NCBI GenBank assembly: GCA_021851525.1
Contig: JAJZDA010000008.1
Coordinates: 1 to 43,124, forward strand
Reading direction: 5' to 3'
From: Actinomycetes bacterium
GTDB lineage: Bacteria; Actinomycetota; Thermoleophilia; Solirubrobacterales; Solirubrobacteraceae
DNA length: 43,124 bases
Shown: in pieces, positions 3,101 through 35,381 of the stretch
How positions within the stretch are numbered: position 1 is the first letter of the stretch
How the letters are laid out: each line of letters starts with the position of its first letter
Notes under the pieces: generated by a model
The model's input: the letters and a program-made list of their open reading frames with translations, nothing else
What the model was told of the DNA's origin: nothing
The model's database searches: none
Translations under genes and position numbers: made by a program

Positions 3101-3685
3101 ATGGACGCTGAGCTCGTAGCCCTGCTCGAGGCGCTGCACCGCGAAGGCCGCGAGTTCGACGCGGGCCAGCCGGACCGTCTGTCCCGCCGCCGCAACCTCG
3201 AGCCGGAGACCGCGGCGCTGCTCGCGCTGCTGGTCGAGGCGCTCGCGCCGCAGCACCTGCTGGAGCTCGGCACCTCCAACGGCTACTCGACGATCTGGCT
3301 GGCCGACGCGGCACGCCGGATCGGCGCGAGCCTGGTGTCGGTGGAGATCGAGCGCCAGCGTGTTGAGCAGGCCCGCGCCAACCTCGTGCGCGCCGGGCTC
3401 AGTGACCAGGTGCAGCTGCGCTGCGCCGACGCGGCTGAGGTGCTGGCGCAGTCCCAGGACGCGCAGTGGCAGTTCGTCTTCCTCGACGCCGAGCGTCCCG
3501 CCTACGTCGGTTACTGGCCGCAGTTGATGCGCGTGCTCGCACCTGGCGGTCTGCTGGTGGTGGACAACGTCATCTCCCACGCCGATGAGCTGCAGGGGTT
3601 CCGGGCGTTGGTGAGCGGCCAGGACGGCGTGCGTGAGGCGCTCGCGCCCACCGGCGCGGGCGCCCTGCTGGTCCTGAGGTCCTGA
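3101..3685 (+). CDS. O-methyltransferase family, class I SAM-dependent methyltransferase
   Basis: LLELGTSNGYSTIWLADAARRIGASLVSVEIE...FVFLDAERPAYVGYW...GGLLVVDNV. Start inferred at MDAELVALLEALHREG. Confidence 0.85.
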   Translation: MDAELVALLEALHREGREFDAGQPDRLSRRRNLEPETAALLALLVEALAPQHLLELGTSNGYSTIWLADAARRIGASLVSVEIERQRVEQARANLVRAGLSDQVQLRCADAAEVLAQSQDAQWQFVFLDAERPAYVGYWPQLMRVLAPGGLLVVDNVISHADELQGFRALVSGQDGVREALAPTGAGALLVLRS

Positions 3686-3755
3686 GGTCCTGTCCTGATG
3701 TCCTGATGTCCTGAGGACCGGAGGACCAGAGGTGCTGAGCCCCTGAGGTCCGGTG
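3671..3755. repeat. 8-bp tandem-repeat array (consensus GTCCTGAG)
   Basis: Read directly: GTCCTGAG x2, GTCCT, GTCCTGAT x2, GTCCTGAG, GACCGGAG, GACCAGAG, GTGCTGAG, CCCCTGAG, GTCCGGTG. Overlaps the methyltransferase 3' end. Confidence 0.9.
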
Positions 3756-4825: not shown

Positions 4826-4910
4826 GCGCCGGCCCGTCCGCCGGGCTCAGCTGACCAGCGCGGCGCCGGCCCGTCCGCCGGGCTCAGCTGACCAGCGCGG
4901 CGCCGGCCCG
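4826..4910. repeat. 37-bp tandem duplication (2.3 copies) containing GC hairpins, between convergent genes
   Basis: GCGCCGGCCCGTCCGCCGGGCTCAGCTGACCAGCGCG at 4826-4862 and 4863-4899, partial at 4900-4910. Each unit has GCCCG-TCCGC-CGGGC. Confidence 0.92.
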
Positions 4911-14115: not shown

Positions 14116-14841
14116 GTGAGCGTCGAGCACTGGCTTCCCGGCACCGAGATCACCTGGCGCTACGAGCATCATGACGGCCGCCACTGGGAGTACGGCGTGC
14201 GCGTGATCCGTGACGACGCGGCGGCGCTCGTCGTCTGGCAGCCGATGGGCGCTCCGATGCGCGACACGATCCGGGTCGACGGGCGCTCGTTGCGCGCCCA
14301 CAAGCCGACCATGTTCAGCGCCCCCACCCGGGTGGTGGACACGGTCTGGAAGCGCACCAGCATCCTGCGGATCGCGATGCCCGGCCGCGCCTGGTCTGTG
14401 TGGGTCTATTTCGACGGCGCCAGCGGTGCCTTTCAGGGGTGGTACGGCAACGTCGAGCTCCCCTACTGGCGTGAGGCGGATGCCGTCATCAGCCGTGACG
14501 AGGTGCTGGACGTGGTGATCGCGCCCGACCGCACGACGCGGCGCAAGGACGAGGATGAGCTCGAGCTCGCGGTCCAGCACGGCCTCTACAGCGAGGCGCA
14601 GGCACGGCAGATCATCGCCACCGCGCAGGAGATAGAGGCGGCGGTCAGCGCCTGGGAGTCGCCGTTCTGTGACGGCTGGGAGCGCTTCAGACCGGATCCC
14701 GGCTGGCCGATCCCGCGTCTGCGCGCAGGCGGCGCGCAGACACCTTCCGCGCCCTCCGCGCCCTCCGCGCCCTCGGCGCCTTCCGCGCCCTCCGCACCCT
14801 CGGCACCTTCCGCGCCCTCCGCACCTTCCGCGCCCTCCTGA
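14116..14841 (+). CDS. DUF402 domain protein with C-terminal (PSA)10 tail
   Basis: VWKRTSILRIAMPGRAWSVWVYFDGASGAFQGWYGNVELPYWREADAVISRDEVLDVVIAP; tail PSAPSAPSA... GTG 14116 inferred. Confidence 0.78.
   Translation: MSVEHWLPGTEITWRYEHHDGRHWEYGVRVIRDDAAALVVWQPMGAPMRDTIRVDGRSLRAHKPTMFSAPTRVVDTVWKRTSILRIAMPGRAWSVWVYFDGASGAFQGWYGNVELPYWREADAVISRDEVLDVVIAPDRTTRRKDEDELELAVQHGLYSEAQARQIIATAQEIEAAVSAWESPFCDGWERFRPDPGWPIPRLRAGGAQTPSAPSAPSAPSAPSAPSAPSAPSAPSAPSAPS
14743..14838. repeat. 9-bp coding microsatellite encoding (Pro-Ser-Ala)10-Pro-Ser
   Basis: 32 consecutive codons CCT/CCC-TCC/TCG-GCG/GCA/GCC up to the stop at 14839. Confidence 0.95.
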
Positions 14842-14856
14842 GCGCCCGCCCTGGCC

Positions 14857-18121: not shown

Positions 18122-18961
18122 ATGCGGTTGCGTCTCTACCACCACCAGGACGGCGCCCGCGTCGCCTACCGGGAGAGCGGCGCCGGCCCCGCGATCGTGC
18201 TGCTGCATTCGCTGGGGCTCACGCACCGCGAGTTTGAGCCGGTGGTGGAGGCGCTCAGCGCGCGCTTTCGCGTGATCCTGCCCGACCTGCCGCTGCACGG
18301 CGACTCCGAGGACCGGCCGCGTCACCCGTACACGCCGCAGTGGATGGTGGAGGTGCTGAGCGGCTTCTGCGCTGAGGTCGGAGGGCCGCGCGCCGCGTTG
18401 GTCGGTCATGACCTGGGCGCTGAGCTGGCGCTGGGTGCGGTGCTTGCGGGGACGCTTGCGCCCCGGCGTCTGGTGCTGCTGCCCAACCGCATGCACGGCC
18501 GCGATCAGCGGCCCGGGTTGCGCCTGGCGTGGGCCGGGGTCACCGGCCTGGGGACGGTTCCGGGGGTGGATCTGGCGCTCTCTCACGCGGTGCGCCTGGC
18601 CGCCAGGCCGCGCGTCGCCGACCGTCTCAGCCATCAGCGCAACCCGGCGGCACGTGACCTGATGCGCCACGCCTTCGGCGACCTGGCCGGCGACTCCAGC
18701 CGCATGCGGGCGTGGGCCAAGTTCGCACGCCATTGGCCGCGCGGCGCCCAGCGTGAGCTGCTGGGGCGCTACCCGTCGCTGCAGTTGCCGGTGTTGCTGC
18801 TGTGGGCTGAGGAGGATCCGCTCGCACCGCTGCAGGTGGCGCGTGAGGCGCTTGATCTGATCCCCGGCGCGCAGCTGCGCACGATCGCTGACGCCGGCTT
18901 CCTGGTCGCCTACGACGACCCCGTGGCGCTGGCGCGAGAATTGATCTGGTTCTGTGACTGA
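18122..18961 (+). CDS. alpha/beta hydrolase
   Basis: AIVLLHSLGLTHREFEPVVEALSARFRVILPDLPLHGDSE...LVGHDLGAELALGAV. In-frame ATG 18122 within ORF 17750. Confidence 0.85.
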   Translation: MRLRLYHHQDGARVAYRESGAGPAIVLLHSLGLTHREFEPVVEALSARFRVILPDLPLHGDSEDRPRHPYTPQWMVEVLSGFCAEVGGPRAALVGHDLGAELALGAVLAGTLAPRRLVLLPNRMHGRDQRPGLRLAWAGVTGLGTVPGVDLALSHAVRLAARPRVADRLSHQRNPAARDLMRHAFGDLAGDSSRMRAWAKFARHWPRGAQRELLGRYPSLQLPVLLLWAEEDPLAPLQVAREALDLIPGAQLRTIADAGFLVAYDDPVALARELIWFCD

Positions 18962-18974
18962 GCGCCGCTCTGAC

Positions 18975-19245
18975 CGCGTACCACCACCGAGCCTCACCGC
19001 CGAGCGAGCACCACCGAGCTGACCCCATCCTGATCGACCATCACCGCCGAGCACCACCGCGGAGGGCCACGCCGAGCGAGCACGCACGCCGAGCACCACC
19101 GAGCGCCGCCGAGCGAGCACCACGACCGAGCACCACGACCGAGCACCCACACCGAGCGCCGCCGAGCGAGCACCACGACCGAGCACCACGACCGAGCACC
19201 CACACCGAGCACCACCGAACACCCACACCGAGCGCCGCCGAGCGC
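18975..19245. repeat. CCGAG/CACC-rich degenerate repeat region with a 53-bp perfect tandem duplication
   Basis: GAGCGCCGCCGAGCGAGCACCACGACCGAGCACCACGACCGAGCACCCACACC at 19101-19153 and 19154-19206, flanked by degenerate ACCGAGCACC-type units. Confidence 0.9.
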
Positions 19246-19249
19246 CACC

Positions 19250-19290
19250 CTGGGGGAGAAACCGAGCGTGGGGATGGCTTTCTCCCCCAG
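19250..19290. terminator. inverted repeat / terminator-like hairpin downstream of the hydrolase
   Basis: CTGGGGGAGAAA ... TTTCTCCCCCAG, 12-bp perfect arms, 17-nt loop. Confidence 0.6.
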
Positions 19291-19420
19291 CGATCCGCGG
19301 GACGCCGGCCTGATCTGTGTGGTTGGGAGCGCCGCAGCGCACCGGATTCCTGGTGGACACGCTCGGGAGTTGTCTCCCAGAGTGGACCCGAGATTGAAAA
19401 TGGGACACCGGAACTGAGCC

Positions 19421-19644
19421 CCCGAGACGCGGAAGCCTCGACAACTCGACACCTCGAGACCCCGGCAACTCGACACCTCGACAACTCGAGACCCCGACAT
19501 CCCGACACCGCGAGATCCCGACACCGCGAGACCCCGACACCGCGAGACCCCGACACCGCGAGACCCCGACACCCTGAGACCCCGAGACCTCGATACGCCG
19601 AGACCGCGAAACCCTGAAAACCTGAAACCCTGAAACCCTGAAAC
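19421..19644. repeat. 28-unit octamer tandem array (consensus CCCGASAC) upstream of fumC
   Basis: Parsed by eye with no phase loss: CCCGAGAC GCGGAAGC CTCGACAA CTCGACAC ... CCCGACAC CGCGAGAC ... CCTGAAAC x3. Confidence 0.95.
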
Positions 19645-19675
19645 CCCAAACTGAAACCCGAGCAGGAAGGTTGAG

Positions 19676-21016
19676 ATGAGCGTGAGCGCAAACCAGCAGC
19701 TGTGGGGCGGCGAAACGACCAAGGCCGTCGCCAACTTCCCCATCTCCGGCGAGCCGATCCCGGCAGCGGTGATCCACTGGCTGGGGCGGATCAAGGGCGC
19801 TGCCGCGCGGGTCAACGCGGAGCTCGGCCTGCTCGACGCAGGCCTGGCGCAGCGGATCGCTGCCGCCGCCGACCGTGTCGCCGCCGGGGAGTTCGATGAT
19901 CAGTTCCCGATCGATGTCTTCCAGACCGGCTCCGGAACCTCCTCGAACATGAACGCCAACGAGGTTATTGCGGCGCTTGCCACGCAGGCCGACGCGGAGC
20001 ACCCGGCGCATCGCAATGATCACGTCAACATGGGACAGTCGTCCAACGACGTGTTTCCCTCGGCGGTGCACCTCGCGGCGCTCTCGGAGGCGACCACTGA
20101 GCTGCTGCCCGCGCTGGAAGCGCTCGAGGCGTCGTTTGCCGCCAAGGCGCTGGAGTTCCATGACGTCGTCAAGTCCGGGCGCACGCACCTGATGGACGCC
20201 GTGCCGGTGACCCTCGGACAGGAGTTCTCCGGTTACGCGGCCCAGGTCCGCCTGGCCGCCCGACGCGTGCGCGCGGCGCTGCCCCAGGTTGCGCAGATCC
20301 CGCTGGGGGGCACCGCCACCGGCACCGGGCTCAACACCCACCCGGAGTTCGCCGCCCGCGTGCGGGCACGGTTGAGCGCGGACAGCGGCCTGAGCATCTC
20401 CGCCCCCGAGGATCCCTTTGAGGCGCAGGGCAACCGTGACGCGCTGGTGGAGCTGTCCGGGGCGCTGAAGGTGATCGCCGTCTCATTCACGAAGATCGCC
20501 AATGACCTGGCGCTGATGGGCTCCGGTCCGCGCGCCGGGATCGGTGAGATCTTCCTGCCGGAGCTGCAGAAGGGCTCCTCGATCATGCCCGGCAAGGTCA
20601 ACCCGGTGATCCCGGAGGTGACCCTGCAGGTCGCCGCCCAGGTGATTGGCAACGACGGCGCGATCACGATCGCCGGCAGCCAGGGCAACTTCGAGCTCAA
20701 CGTGCGCGTGCCGCTGATCGCGCGCAACCTGCTGGAGTCGATCGCGCTGCTGGCGGCCACCGCCCGCGTGCTCAAGCAGAAGTGTGTCGACGGGATCGAG
20801 GCGAACCTGCCGGGTTGCGAGCGCAGCGCCGAGTCGACGCTCGCCGCGGCCACCGCGCTGAACCCCCATATCGGCTATGACAAGGCCGCGGAGATCGTCA
20901 AGGAGGCCGCGCACTCAGGACGCATGCTGCGCGAGGTCGCCTACGAGTACGGGGTTGACGAGCAGACCTACAACGCAGCGATGGATCTGCGCAGGATGGC
21001 GCAGGGCAACCTCTAG
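19676..21016 (+). CDS. fumC: class II fumarate hydratase
   Basis: QTGSGTSSNMNANEVIA, GRTHLMDAVPVTLGQEFSGYAAQ, GSSIMPGKVNPVIPE; SD-like AGGAAGG before the ATG. Confidence 0.96.
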   Translation: MSVSANQQLWGGETTKAVANFPISGEPIPAAVIHWLGRIKGAAARVNAELGLLDAGLAQRIAAAADRVAAGEFDDQFPIDVFQTGSGTSSNMNANEVIAALATQADAEHPAHRNDHVNMGQSSNDVFPSAVHLAALSEATTELLPALEALEASFAAKALEFHDVVKSGRTHLMDAVPVTLGQEFSGYAAQVRLAARRVRAALPQVAQIPLGGTATGTGLNTHPEFAARVRARLSADSGLSISAPEDPFEAQGNRDALVELSGALKVIAVSFTKIANDLALMGSGPRAGIGEIFLPELQKGSSIMPGKVNPVIPEVTLQVAAQVIGNDGAITIAGSQGNFELNVRVPLIARNLLESIALLAATARVLKQKCVDGIEANLPGCERSAESTLAAATALNPHIGYDKAAEIVKEAAHSGRMLREVAYEYGVDEQTYNAAMDLRRMAQGNL

Positions 21017-21113: not shown

Positions 21114-21314
21114 CGTTCTCAGCCTTGACCCGCGCGTGACCGCGGCGTCCCGGGCTGCGGGGGGTCGTGCGCCGGCGGTCCTGGCCGGGCACGACCCGGA
21201 GTCAGAGGACGGCCGCCTGCGCCGGTTGTGCGGTCCGGCGGCCAGCCGTGGCCTTCGTGCGCAGCGTCCCGCCCGGCAGCTCATGCGGTGCTCGCGCCGG
21301 CGGCGACCGTTCCC

Positions 21315-21422
21315 GAGGCCCGACCGATCCCGAGGCCCGACCGATCCCGAGGCCCCACCGATCCCGAGGCCCCACCGATCGCGAGGCCCGACCGATCCCG
21401 AGGCCACACCGATCCCGAGGCC
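21315..21422. repeat. 17-bp tandem array (6.3 copies) directly upstream of the nitrilase gene
   Basis: GAGGCCCGACCGATCCC x6 with minor variants (21315-21416) plus GAGGCC. Confidence 0.95.
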
Positions 21423-21435
21423 CTACAGTTCACGC

Positions 21436-22272
21436 ATGCGGATCGCGTGTCAACAGTTCGCCCCGGAGATCGCGGCCTTCGACGTGAACCGCGCCGCCTC
21501 GTCGCAGCGGATCCGGGCGGCTGTCGGGCAGGGTGCCGAGCTGGTGGTGCTGCCGGAGCTCACAACCTCCGGCTACGTGTTCAGCTCGCGTGAGGAGGCG
21601 GCGTCGGTGGCCATCCCGGTCGATCATCCACTGTTCGCCGAGTGGGCTGCCGAGATAGCCGAGGCTCCGGGCGGGCGCGGCCTGGTGATCGGCGGCTTCT
21701 GTGAGCTCGGCGCGAGCGGCGCCCTCTACAACAGCGCGGCGGTGGTCAGTGGCGAGGGACTCGTGGCGGTTTATCGCAAGACGCACCTGTGGGATCGCGA
21801 GAAGCTGTTCTTTGAGCCGGGGTCCGACCCGCCGCCGGTCATCGAGACGGTCGCGGGCCGGATTGGGGTCGCGATCTGTTATGACCTCGAGTTCCCGGAG
21901 CTGACGCGGAGCCTGGCGCTGCGCGGTGCTGAGCTGGTCGCGGTGCCGACAAACTGGCCGCTCGTGCCGCGCCCGGGCAACGAGCACCCGCCTGAGGTGG
22001 TGATCGCGATGGCCGCGGCCCGAACCAACCGCATGTTCATCGCCTGCTGCGACCGCAGCGGAACCGAGCGCGGTCAGCGCTGGACGCAGGGCACGGCGAT
22101 CATCGATTGCGACGGCTGGGTGATCGCACGAGCGGACGCCGGTGCTGCGGTTGCGGATGTCGAGCTGTCGCGGGCACGCGAGAAGCGGCTCACCGCGCTG
22201 GCCGACGCGCTGGGTGACCGTCGTCCCGAGCTCTACGGTGATCTCGTGCGAGAGATCCCGTGGGGCGGTTAG
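21436..22272 (+). CDS. carbon-nitrogen hydrolase (nitrilase superfamily)
   Basis: MRIACQQFAPEIAAFDVN...ELVVLPELTTSGYVF...YRKTHLWDREKLFFEPG...GVAICYDLEFPELTRSLALRGAELVAVPTNWP (Glu/Lys/Cys triad). Confidence 0.9.
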   Translation: MRIACQQFAPEIAAFDVNRAASSQRIRAAVGQGAELVVLPELTTSGYVFSSREEAASVAIPVDHPLFAEWAAEIAEAPGGRGLVIGGFCELGASGALYNSAAVVSGEGLVAVYRKTHLWDREKLFFEPGSDPPPVIETVAGRIGVAICYDLEFPELTRSLALRGAELVAVPTNWPLVPRPGNEHPPEVVIAMAAARTNRMFIACCDRSGTERGQRWTQGTAIIDCDGWVIARADAGAAVADVELSRAREKRLTALADALGDRRPELYGDLVREIPWGG

Positions 22273-35246: not shown

Positions 35247-35267
35247 GCGCACCCGGGCTTCGTCCCG

Positions 35268-35340
35268 CCGTCCGCTGTCCCGCCCAACCGTCCGCTGTCC
35301 CGCCCCGCCGTCCGCTGTCCCGCCCAGCCGTCCGCTGACC
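35268..35340. repeat. 20-bp tandem array (about 3.6 copies)
   Basis: CCGTCCGCTGTCCCGCCCAR at 35268, 35288, 35308 and partial at 35328. Confidence 0.93.
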
Positions 35341-35381
35341 CTCAGCCGCCCGCCGCGCGGGCGGTCCTCTAGGCTGCGGGC

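Follow-up and report, generated by a model that had tools for sequence, protein, structure and literature searches.

A run of 28 octamers, kept in one phase and ending just ahead of the ribosome-binding site of a fumC-like gene, raises the question of whether such a repeat takes part in the expression of that gene or is simply a product of the way in which intergenic DNA grows in this lineage. Within the window, that is, the whole stretch of 43,124 nucleotides that was analyzed, the run has the following surroundings:

18122-18961, + strand: alpha/beta hydrolase gene, the upstream neighbour (PF00561, E=4.6e-21), in synteny with fumC in several congeners
19042-19244, no strand: first tandem array, irregular, CACCGAGC with 13-, 40- and 53-bp periods, its + strand T-free to within rounding (TRF; composition)
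19245-19295, + strand: dispersed hairpin with a 37-bp core at 19252-19288, GGGGGAGAAA-N17-TTTCTCCCCC, and a 7-nt loop CGTGGGG (exact-arm copies; covarying stem)
19289-19420, no strand: non-repetitive spacer of 132 bp; an undetected promoter lying between hairpin and array would have to be here (+ strand free of TANNNT; empty promoter scan)
19421-19644, + strand: octamer array, 28 x 8 bp, consensus CCCGACAC / CCCGAGAC
19645-19663, + strand: decayed, out-of-phase array remnants (CCCAAAC, TGAAAC, CCGAGC), read from the sequence
19664-19670, + strand: Shine-Dalgarno-like AGGAAGG, 5 nt 5' of the ATG, read from the sequence
19676-21016, + strand: fumC-like lyase of the fumarase/aspartase superfamily, 446 aa (fumC_II of NCBIfam; PF00206, PF10415)

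The downstream gene had been named fumC in an earlier note on this DNA, and the name does describe its best NCBIfam match, fumC_II, a class II fumarase model; the score of 507.9 bits, however, lies below the curated cut-off of 664.75, and the aspartate ammonia-lyase model gives a nearly equal one (496.5, cut-off 510). Judged by these models, the product would be a lyase of the fumarase/aspartase type, most like class II fumarase, whose substrate is not certain; its closest named relative, with 78% identity, comes from a Solirubrobacterales MAG. The spacer between the hydrolase gene and fumC measures 714 bp (18962-19675); no TANNNT hexamer occurs anywhere on its + strand, and promoter and terminator scans of it found nothing.

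The periodicity reported in the earlier note is real. Counted in octamers from 19421, the array keeps one constant phase through 28 units up to 19644, which leaves 31 nt to the fumC ATG at 19676. Its self-identity is 0.727 at lag 8, 0.808 at lag 16 and 0.730 at lag 24, as compared with a baseline of 0.317 +/- 0.034 obtained from 2000 dinucleotide shuffles (z 12-15), and the highest identity over lags 5 to 40 in 500 shuffles did not exceed 0.457. TRF returned periods of 8, 16 and 24, each with 0% indels and scores of 120-164. The absence of indels, which had also been pointed out, holds for 19421-19644 but not beyond, the out-of-phase remnants beginning at 19645 and a gapped alignment with the unit CCTGAAAC extending to 19659; the zero-indel status is therefore partly an artefact, because the end of the span was set where indels begin. 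At the 5' edge, unit 2 (GCGGAAGC) agrees with the consensus at only 4 of its 8 positions, thus the solid block of the array is 19437-19644. As for the consensus CCCGASAC, positions A5, A7 and C1 are nearly invariant across the array but only G4 is strict.

Contiguous head-to-tail units beyond chance make this array a minisatellite, or tandem repeat, and rule out a CRISPR array, in which unique spacers would separate the units. The view that the array is not coding, and that an antisense reading frame across it is a by-product, agrees with our results: neither of the two antisense ORFs tested over the array matched a Pfam or NCBIfam family, and an 8-bp unit breaks the frame. The search of the window against Rfam gave no match and the tRNA search none. 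The sense strand of the array contains 43% C, 21% G and 7% T (C/G about 2), and the folding predicted over 260 nt of array RNA amounts to -46 kcal/mol for the sense strand, which is weakly structured, and to -105 for the antisense strand.

Comparison of the units with each other divides the array into segments:

19437-19500, + strand: 5' array block, a 32-bp block in two copies (units 3-6 and 7-10; 4/32 mismatches), from unit distances at spacing 4
19501-19572, + strand: central higher-order block, CCCGACAC-CGCGAGAC x4.5 (units 11-19 alternating), one mismatch, from unit distances at spacing 2
19613-19644, + strand: 3' array block, CCTGAAAC x4 (units 25-28), one mismatch, from unit comparison (TRF 19608-19646)

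Mean mismatches between units were 2.19 at spacing 1, 1.54 at spacing 2, 2.16 at spacing 3 and 1.75 at spacing 4. The higher-order 16-mers noticed before are thus present at 19501-19572 and confined to it, with 32-bp and 8-bp blocks elsewhere. Whole units were duplicated inside the array in blocks of 32, 16 and 8 bp, each in a separate segment, and these varied step sizes, together with the decayed edges, fit a history of slippage or unequal exchange; the proposal of a slippage-prone element, taken as a statement about origin, is in keeping with the nested duplications. In a neutral simulation of duplication and mutation, matched to the mean diversity of the array, 6% of runs produced columns that were equally uneven, and 19% had no fewer conserved columns. 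Column conservation is therefore compatible with neutral growth and selection on the unit is not required, with the reservation that the test is weak and its P of 0.06 borderline; selection on an octamer core was considered, and the neutral simulation was not rejected.

The regions upstream of fumC were compared in 19 congeners (the contig of genome G041 ends inside fumC). None of these 19 leaders carries an array like the octamer one. Repeats do occur in G043 (2.8 copies, 18 bp) and in G015 (degenerate, ~19 bp), the latter unrelated in sequence to the octamer. Of the 19, 14 carry a TAGNNT element, in most cases GTAGCGTT, at 37-55 nt 5' of the fumC ATG, a position at which it is likely to serve as a -10 element with a short leader; in G015 it is found at -113, followed by the degenerate repeat. 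No TAGNNT-like element was found in the 714-bp spacer of the window, and since the element of the congeners is missing here, the array may have replaced part of the leader and could affect expression. Moreover, the hydrolase-fumC distance is 12-110 bp in nine congeners versus 714 bp in the window, where the gap contains two arrays and one dispersed hairpin, indicating that the spacer was lengthened in this lineage.

Tandem arrays were counted across the source genome (a Solirubrobacterales MAG; 3.44 Mb, 267 contigs) in a sample of 552 kb, about 16%, made up of the window and 509 kb of further stretches. With a minimum of 2.5 copies, TRF gave 39 intergenic arrays, or 51 with looser merging of its rows, a density of 7-9 per 100 kb that extrapolates to about 240-320 arrays genome-wide. 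Their periods range from 7 to 60 bp with mostly unrelated units (CGCTGTC x16.6, GGGCGGTCCG x5.9 and CGACCGATCCCGAGGCC x7.1 are examples), and 31 of the 51 are free of indels. The last-named example belongs to the window:

21304-21423, no strand: intergenic array of the 17-mer CGACCGATCCCGAGGCC x7.1, indel-free, ending 13 bp before a nitrilase-like gene at 21436-22272 (TRF)

Other intergenic arrays of the window are GGTCCTGA x10.6 at 3670-3751, a perfect 37-mer x2.3 at 4826-4910 and a 20-mer x3.8 at 35264-35341; TCCGCGCCC x10 (period 9, 14746-14849), at the 3' end of a predicted gene (14116-14841), probably represents coding repeats.

By the orientation of their flanking genes, 16 sampled arrays are codirectional, 6 divergent and 6 convergent, versus about 30, 15 and 15 kb of intergenic DNA available; among 21 codirectional arrays, 8 are closer to the gene start than to the stop and 12 have a positive sense-strand C skew, with no consistent sign. 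Hence arrays in the sampled genome favour neither gene starts nor any gene orientation or strand, with single distances being approximate as gene boundaries came from a simple codon-usage caller. Contigs of MAGs often stop in arrays, so that these are undercounted, and runs of identical copies may come out too short in a short-read assembly. A scan of the 3.44-Mb genome found no octamer cluster beyond the fumC locus, which is single-copy. Densities per 100 kb in congeners, obtained by an identical procedure, were only 0.5 in G011, 2.3 in G006, 3.5 in G015 and, with looser merging and in stretches selected around its hairpins rather than sampled at random, 0.6 in G041; array abundance is thus a trait of this lineage. 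Among the papers searched, none was relevant to intergenic tandem repeats in Solirubrobacter or to the heptamer arrays (STRR) of cyanobacteria.

Mismatch repair may offer a partial background for this abundance. A NucS domain is present in the source genome, so that the many arrays cannot be put down to its loss, and no MutS domain was detected in that genome. NucS repair corrects transitions and not indels (PMC8228993), so that slippage intermediates would escape it. Repair by NucS only cannot alone explain the abundance, because array-poor G011 and G041 also lack MutS, and for the same reason absence of MutS fails to divide array-rich from array-poor congeners. In the genus, MutS-domain genes, mostly in adjacent pairs, were seen in G001, G004, G005, G006, G013 and G020, all six of which have NucS too, while none was seen in the remaining 22 of the 28 genomes.

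The hairpin that separates the two arrays belongs to an unannotated family with about 35 copies in the source genome, also found in congeners G015 and G041. Exact-arm copies number 30 in the source genome, and in every one the interior measures 17 nt, the search having admitted 8-24; when up to 3 mismatches are tolerated, the pattern occurs 34 times there, 14 times in G015 and once, as a weak match, in G018, and about two dozen further copies were recovered in G041 by a covariance model. The 33 copies examined in the source genome G000 (L218-L227, L236-L254 and that of the window) all lie between predicted genes. When these copies are aligned with those of G015, covariation supports a stem of up to 22 bp: 82.9% of cells are paired, versus 44-53% in slid registers, and 48 cells changed on both sides, versus 26 in shuffles (0/500). 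The family loop, CGTGGGA, is conserved. This hairpin was seen in no other fumC spacer examined, therefore this copy probably came into the lineage. In several copies (L220, L236, L251, L252 and the window at about 19350-19360) a CACCGGATTC-like block recurs about 60 nt 3' of the hairpin, which suggests an element longer than the 37-bp core.

As an intergenic palindrome of 37 bp, within the 20-40 bp of REP elements, with tens of copies and a conserved loop, this hairpin resembles the REP and the CGTC- and GTAG-tagged palindromes (PMC3733652, whose main text does not contain the word Actinobacteria). It differs from them in that no RAYT-type Y1 transposase gene (PF01797), the companion of the GTAG type, was found in the source genome, which is 90% complete, and a RAYT was accordingly discarded as its mobiliser. 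In alignment A1, AG[CG]GTCG follows the hairpin arm and those bases are mostly paired with the opposite side; since pairing runs through the outer bases, an unpaired GTAG or CGTC tag at one end is not clearly recognisable. The hairpin of the window matched no Rfam family, and no copy was present in IMG/VR viral contigs.

Taken together, these observations make it probable, in our judgment, that the octamer array is a neutral, lineage-specific intergenic minisatellite without a dedicated function; we infer slippage as its motor, with NucS-only repair helping, as well as its neutrality. An octamer in the hydrolase-fumC spacer would have been duplicated in steps of 8, 16 and 32 bp by replication slippage or unequal recombination while point substitutions built up, the central 16-mer run being presumably the youngest block and both edges the more decayed. 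Together with the second array and the hairpin, the octamer array would have stretched the spacer from roughly 10-110 bp to 714 bp, and if fumC is affected at all, this would be incidental to the length and weak structure of its leader. The hairpin itself could have started the process, if a replication stall or break there seeded tandem duplications next to it, a rival for the origin of the arrays and not for their function. Two arrays flank the hairpin at fumC, and an array lies within 300 bp of 25 of the 33 copies in the source genome, versus a fraction of 0.31 when positions were drawn at random from spacers of 300-1200 bp that lack the element; yet at least six of the 33 (L224, L226, L239, L240, L246 and L249) are not independent, having near-identical flanks of >100 bp that include a 19-bp array, and in congeners with the family the count falls to 0 of 15 copies (G041, despite a similar family) and 3 of 14 (G015, near background). 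The link with arrays thus does not hold for the hairpin in general, and we regard this origin as quite unlikely.

Turning to function, the array may have an effect on fumC as a leader, and the reading that gives this effect a purpose is that a C-rich, unstructured and evenly spaced tract in the fumC mRNA loads Rho or another RNA-binding protein, lowering expression or making it conditional, with copy number as the tuning. The place of the array directly 5' of the ribosome-binding site, the C-rich, T-poor sense strand with its weakly structured RNA and the loss of the likely promoter motif of the congeners, which makes a longer leader plausible, all speak for it, as does G015, whose leader also grew by a repeat placed after its TAGNNT; but no upstream promoter was found in the scans, so that transcription of the array is a supposition, and the other codirectional arrays neither share a C skew nor sit closer to gene starts. 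We consider this functional leader unlikely. The earlier note also proposed a transcription/translation spacer, which stays a candidate. In a stronger version of the leader reading, tandem arrays growing by themselves took over the leader in this lineage, its ancestral promoter-proximal segment disappeared, and fumC expression would now be governed by the C-rich octamer tract, which either loads Rho or acts by spacing, with copy number tuning a gene of central metabolism. This seems very doubtful to us; if it were true, G015, where an unrelated repeat lengthened the fumC leader, would be an independent case. The protein-binding array suggested in the earlier note, here a cluster of sites at which a DNA-binding regulator of fumC would sit, could draw on four nearly invariant columns out of eight (C1, G4, A5, A7) and on a phase held constant over 224 bp. 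Neutral growth accounts for those columns, however, 8 bp is not a helical turn, a regulatory site would be expected at other genes or kept in relatives whereas the cluster is found neither elsewhere in the genome nor in the 19 congener leaders, and the array is one of dozens sampled with unrelated units; the suggestion is thus highly improbable. Equally hard to credit is a contingency locus switching fumC on and off by copy number. A repeat between an upstream gene and a start codon is at a classical site of spacing variation, but the array lies at the ribosome-binding site instead of separating a recognisable -35 from a -10 element, a fumarase would be an odd choice of target, and neighbouring units differ by a mean of 2.2 positions in 8 (1.5 at spacing two), a degeneracy that should slow slippage and sets them apart from the near-identical units of phase-variable repeats; neither a coding frame (ORF families) nor flanking promoter elements (promoter scan) were found for the array.

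The neutral minisatellite that we favour has parallels among known repeats. Cyanobacterial heptamer arrays (STRR) likewise consist of very short in-phase units in intergenic DNA. STRR units recur at many loci in one genome, whereas the octamer is arrayed at a single one. Bacterial minisatellites or VNTR loci, too, have short head-to-tail units scattered in one genome. A survey of satellites in prokaryotes (PMC6749651) ascribes them to local errors made when DNA is duplicated, and they are very uneven between species; the density found here, about 70-90 per Mb by TRF, is above the values of about 2-23 per Mb given for bacteria in that study, but the two figures rest on different criteria and are not comparable.

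The earlier observation of the array is accordingly accurate, while its functional reading is unsupported beyond a slippage-derived origin. It does not follow from a phase-perfect array in front of a housekeeping gene that the array is regulatory, since in this genome such arrays are common, diverse in their units and unplaced relative to genes. The hairpin family is a more useful lead than the array and may merit a separate study. Because array densities of close relatives differ more than 10-fold, this genome could serve the study of how minisatellites originate under NucS repair that is blind to indels.
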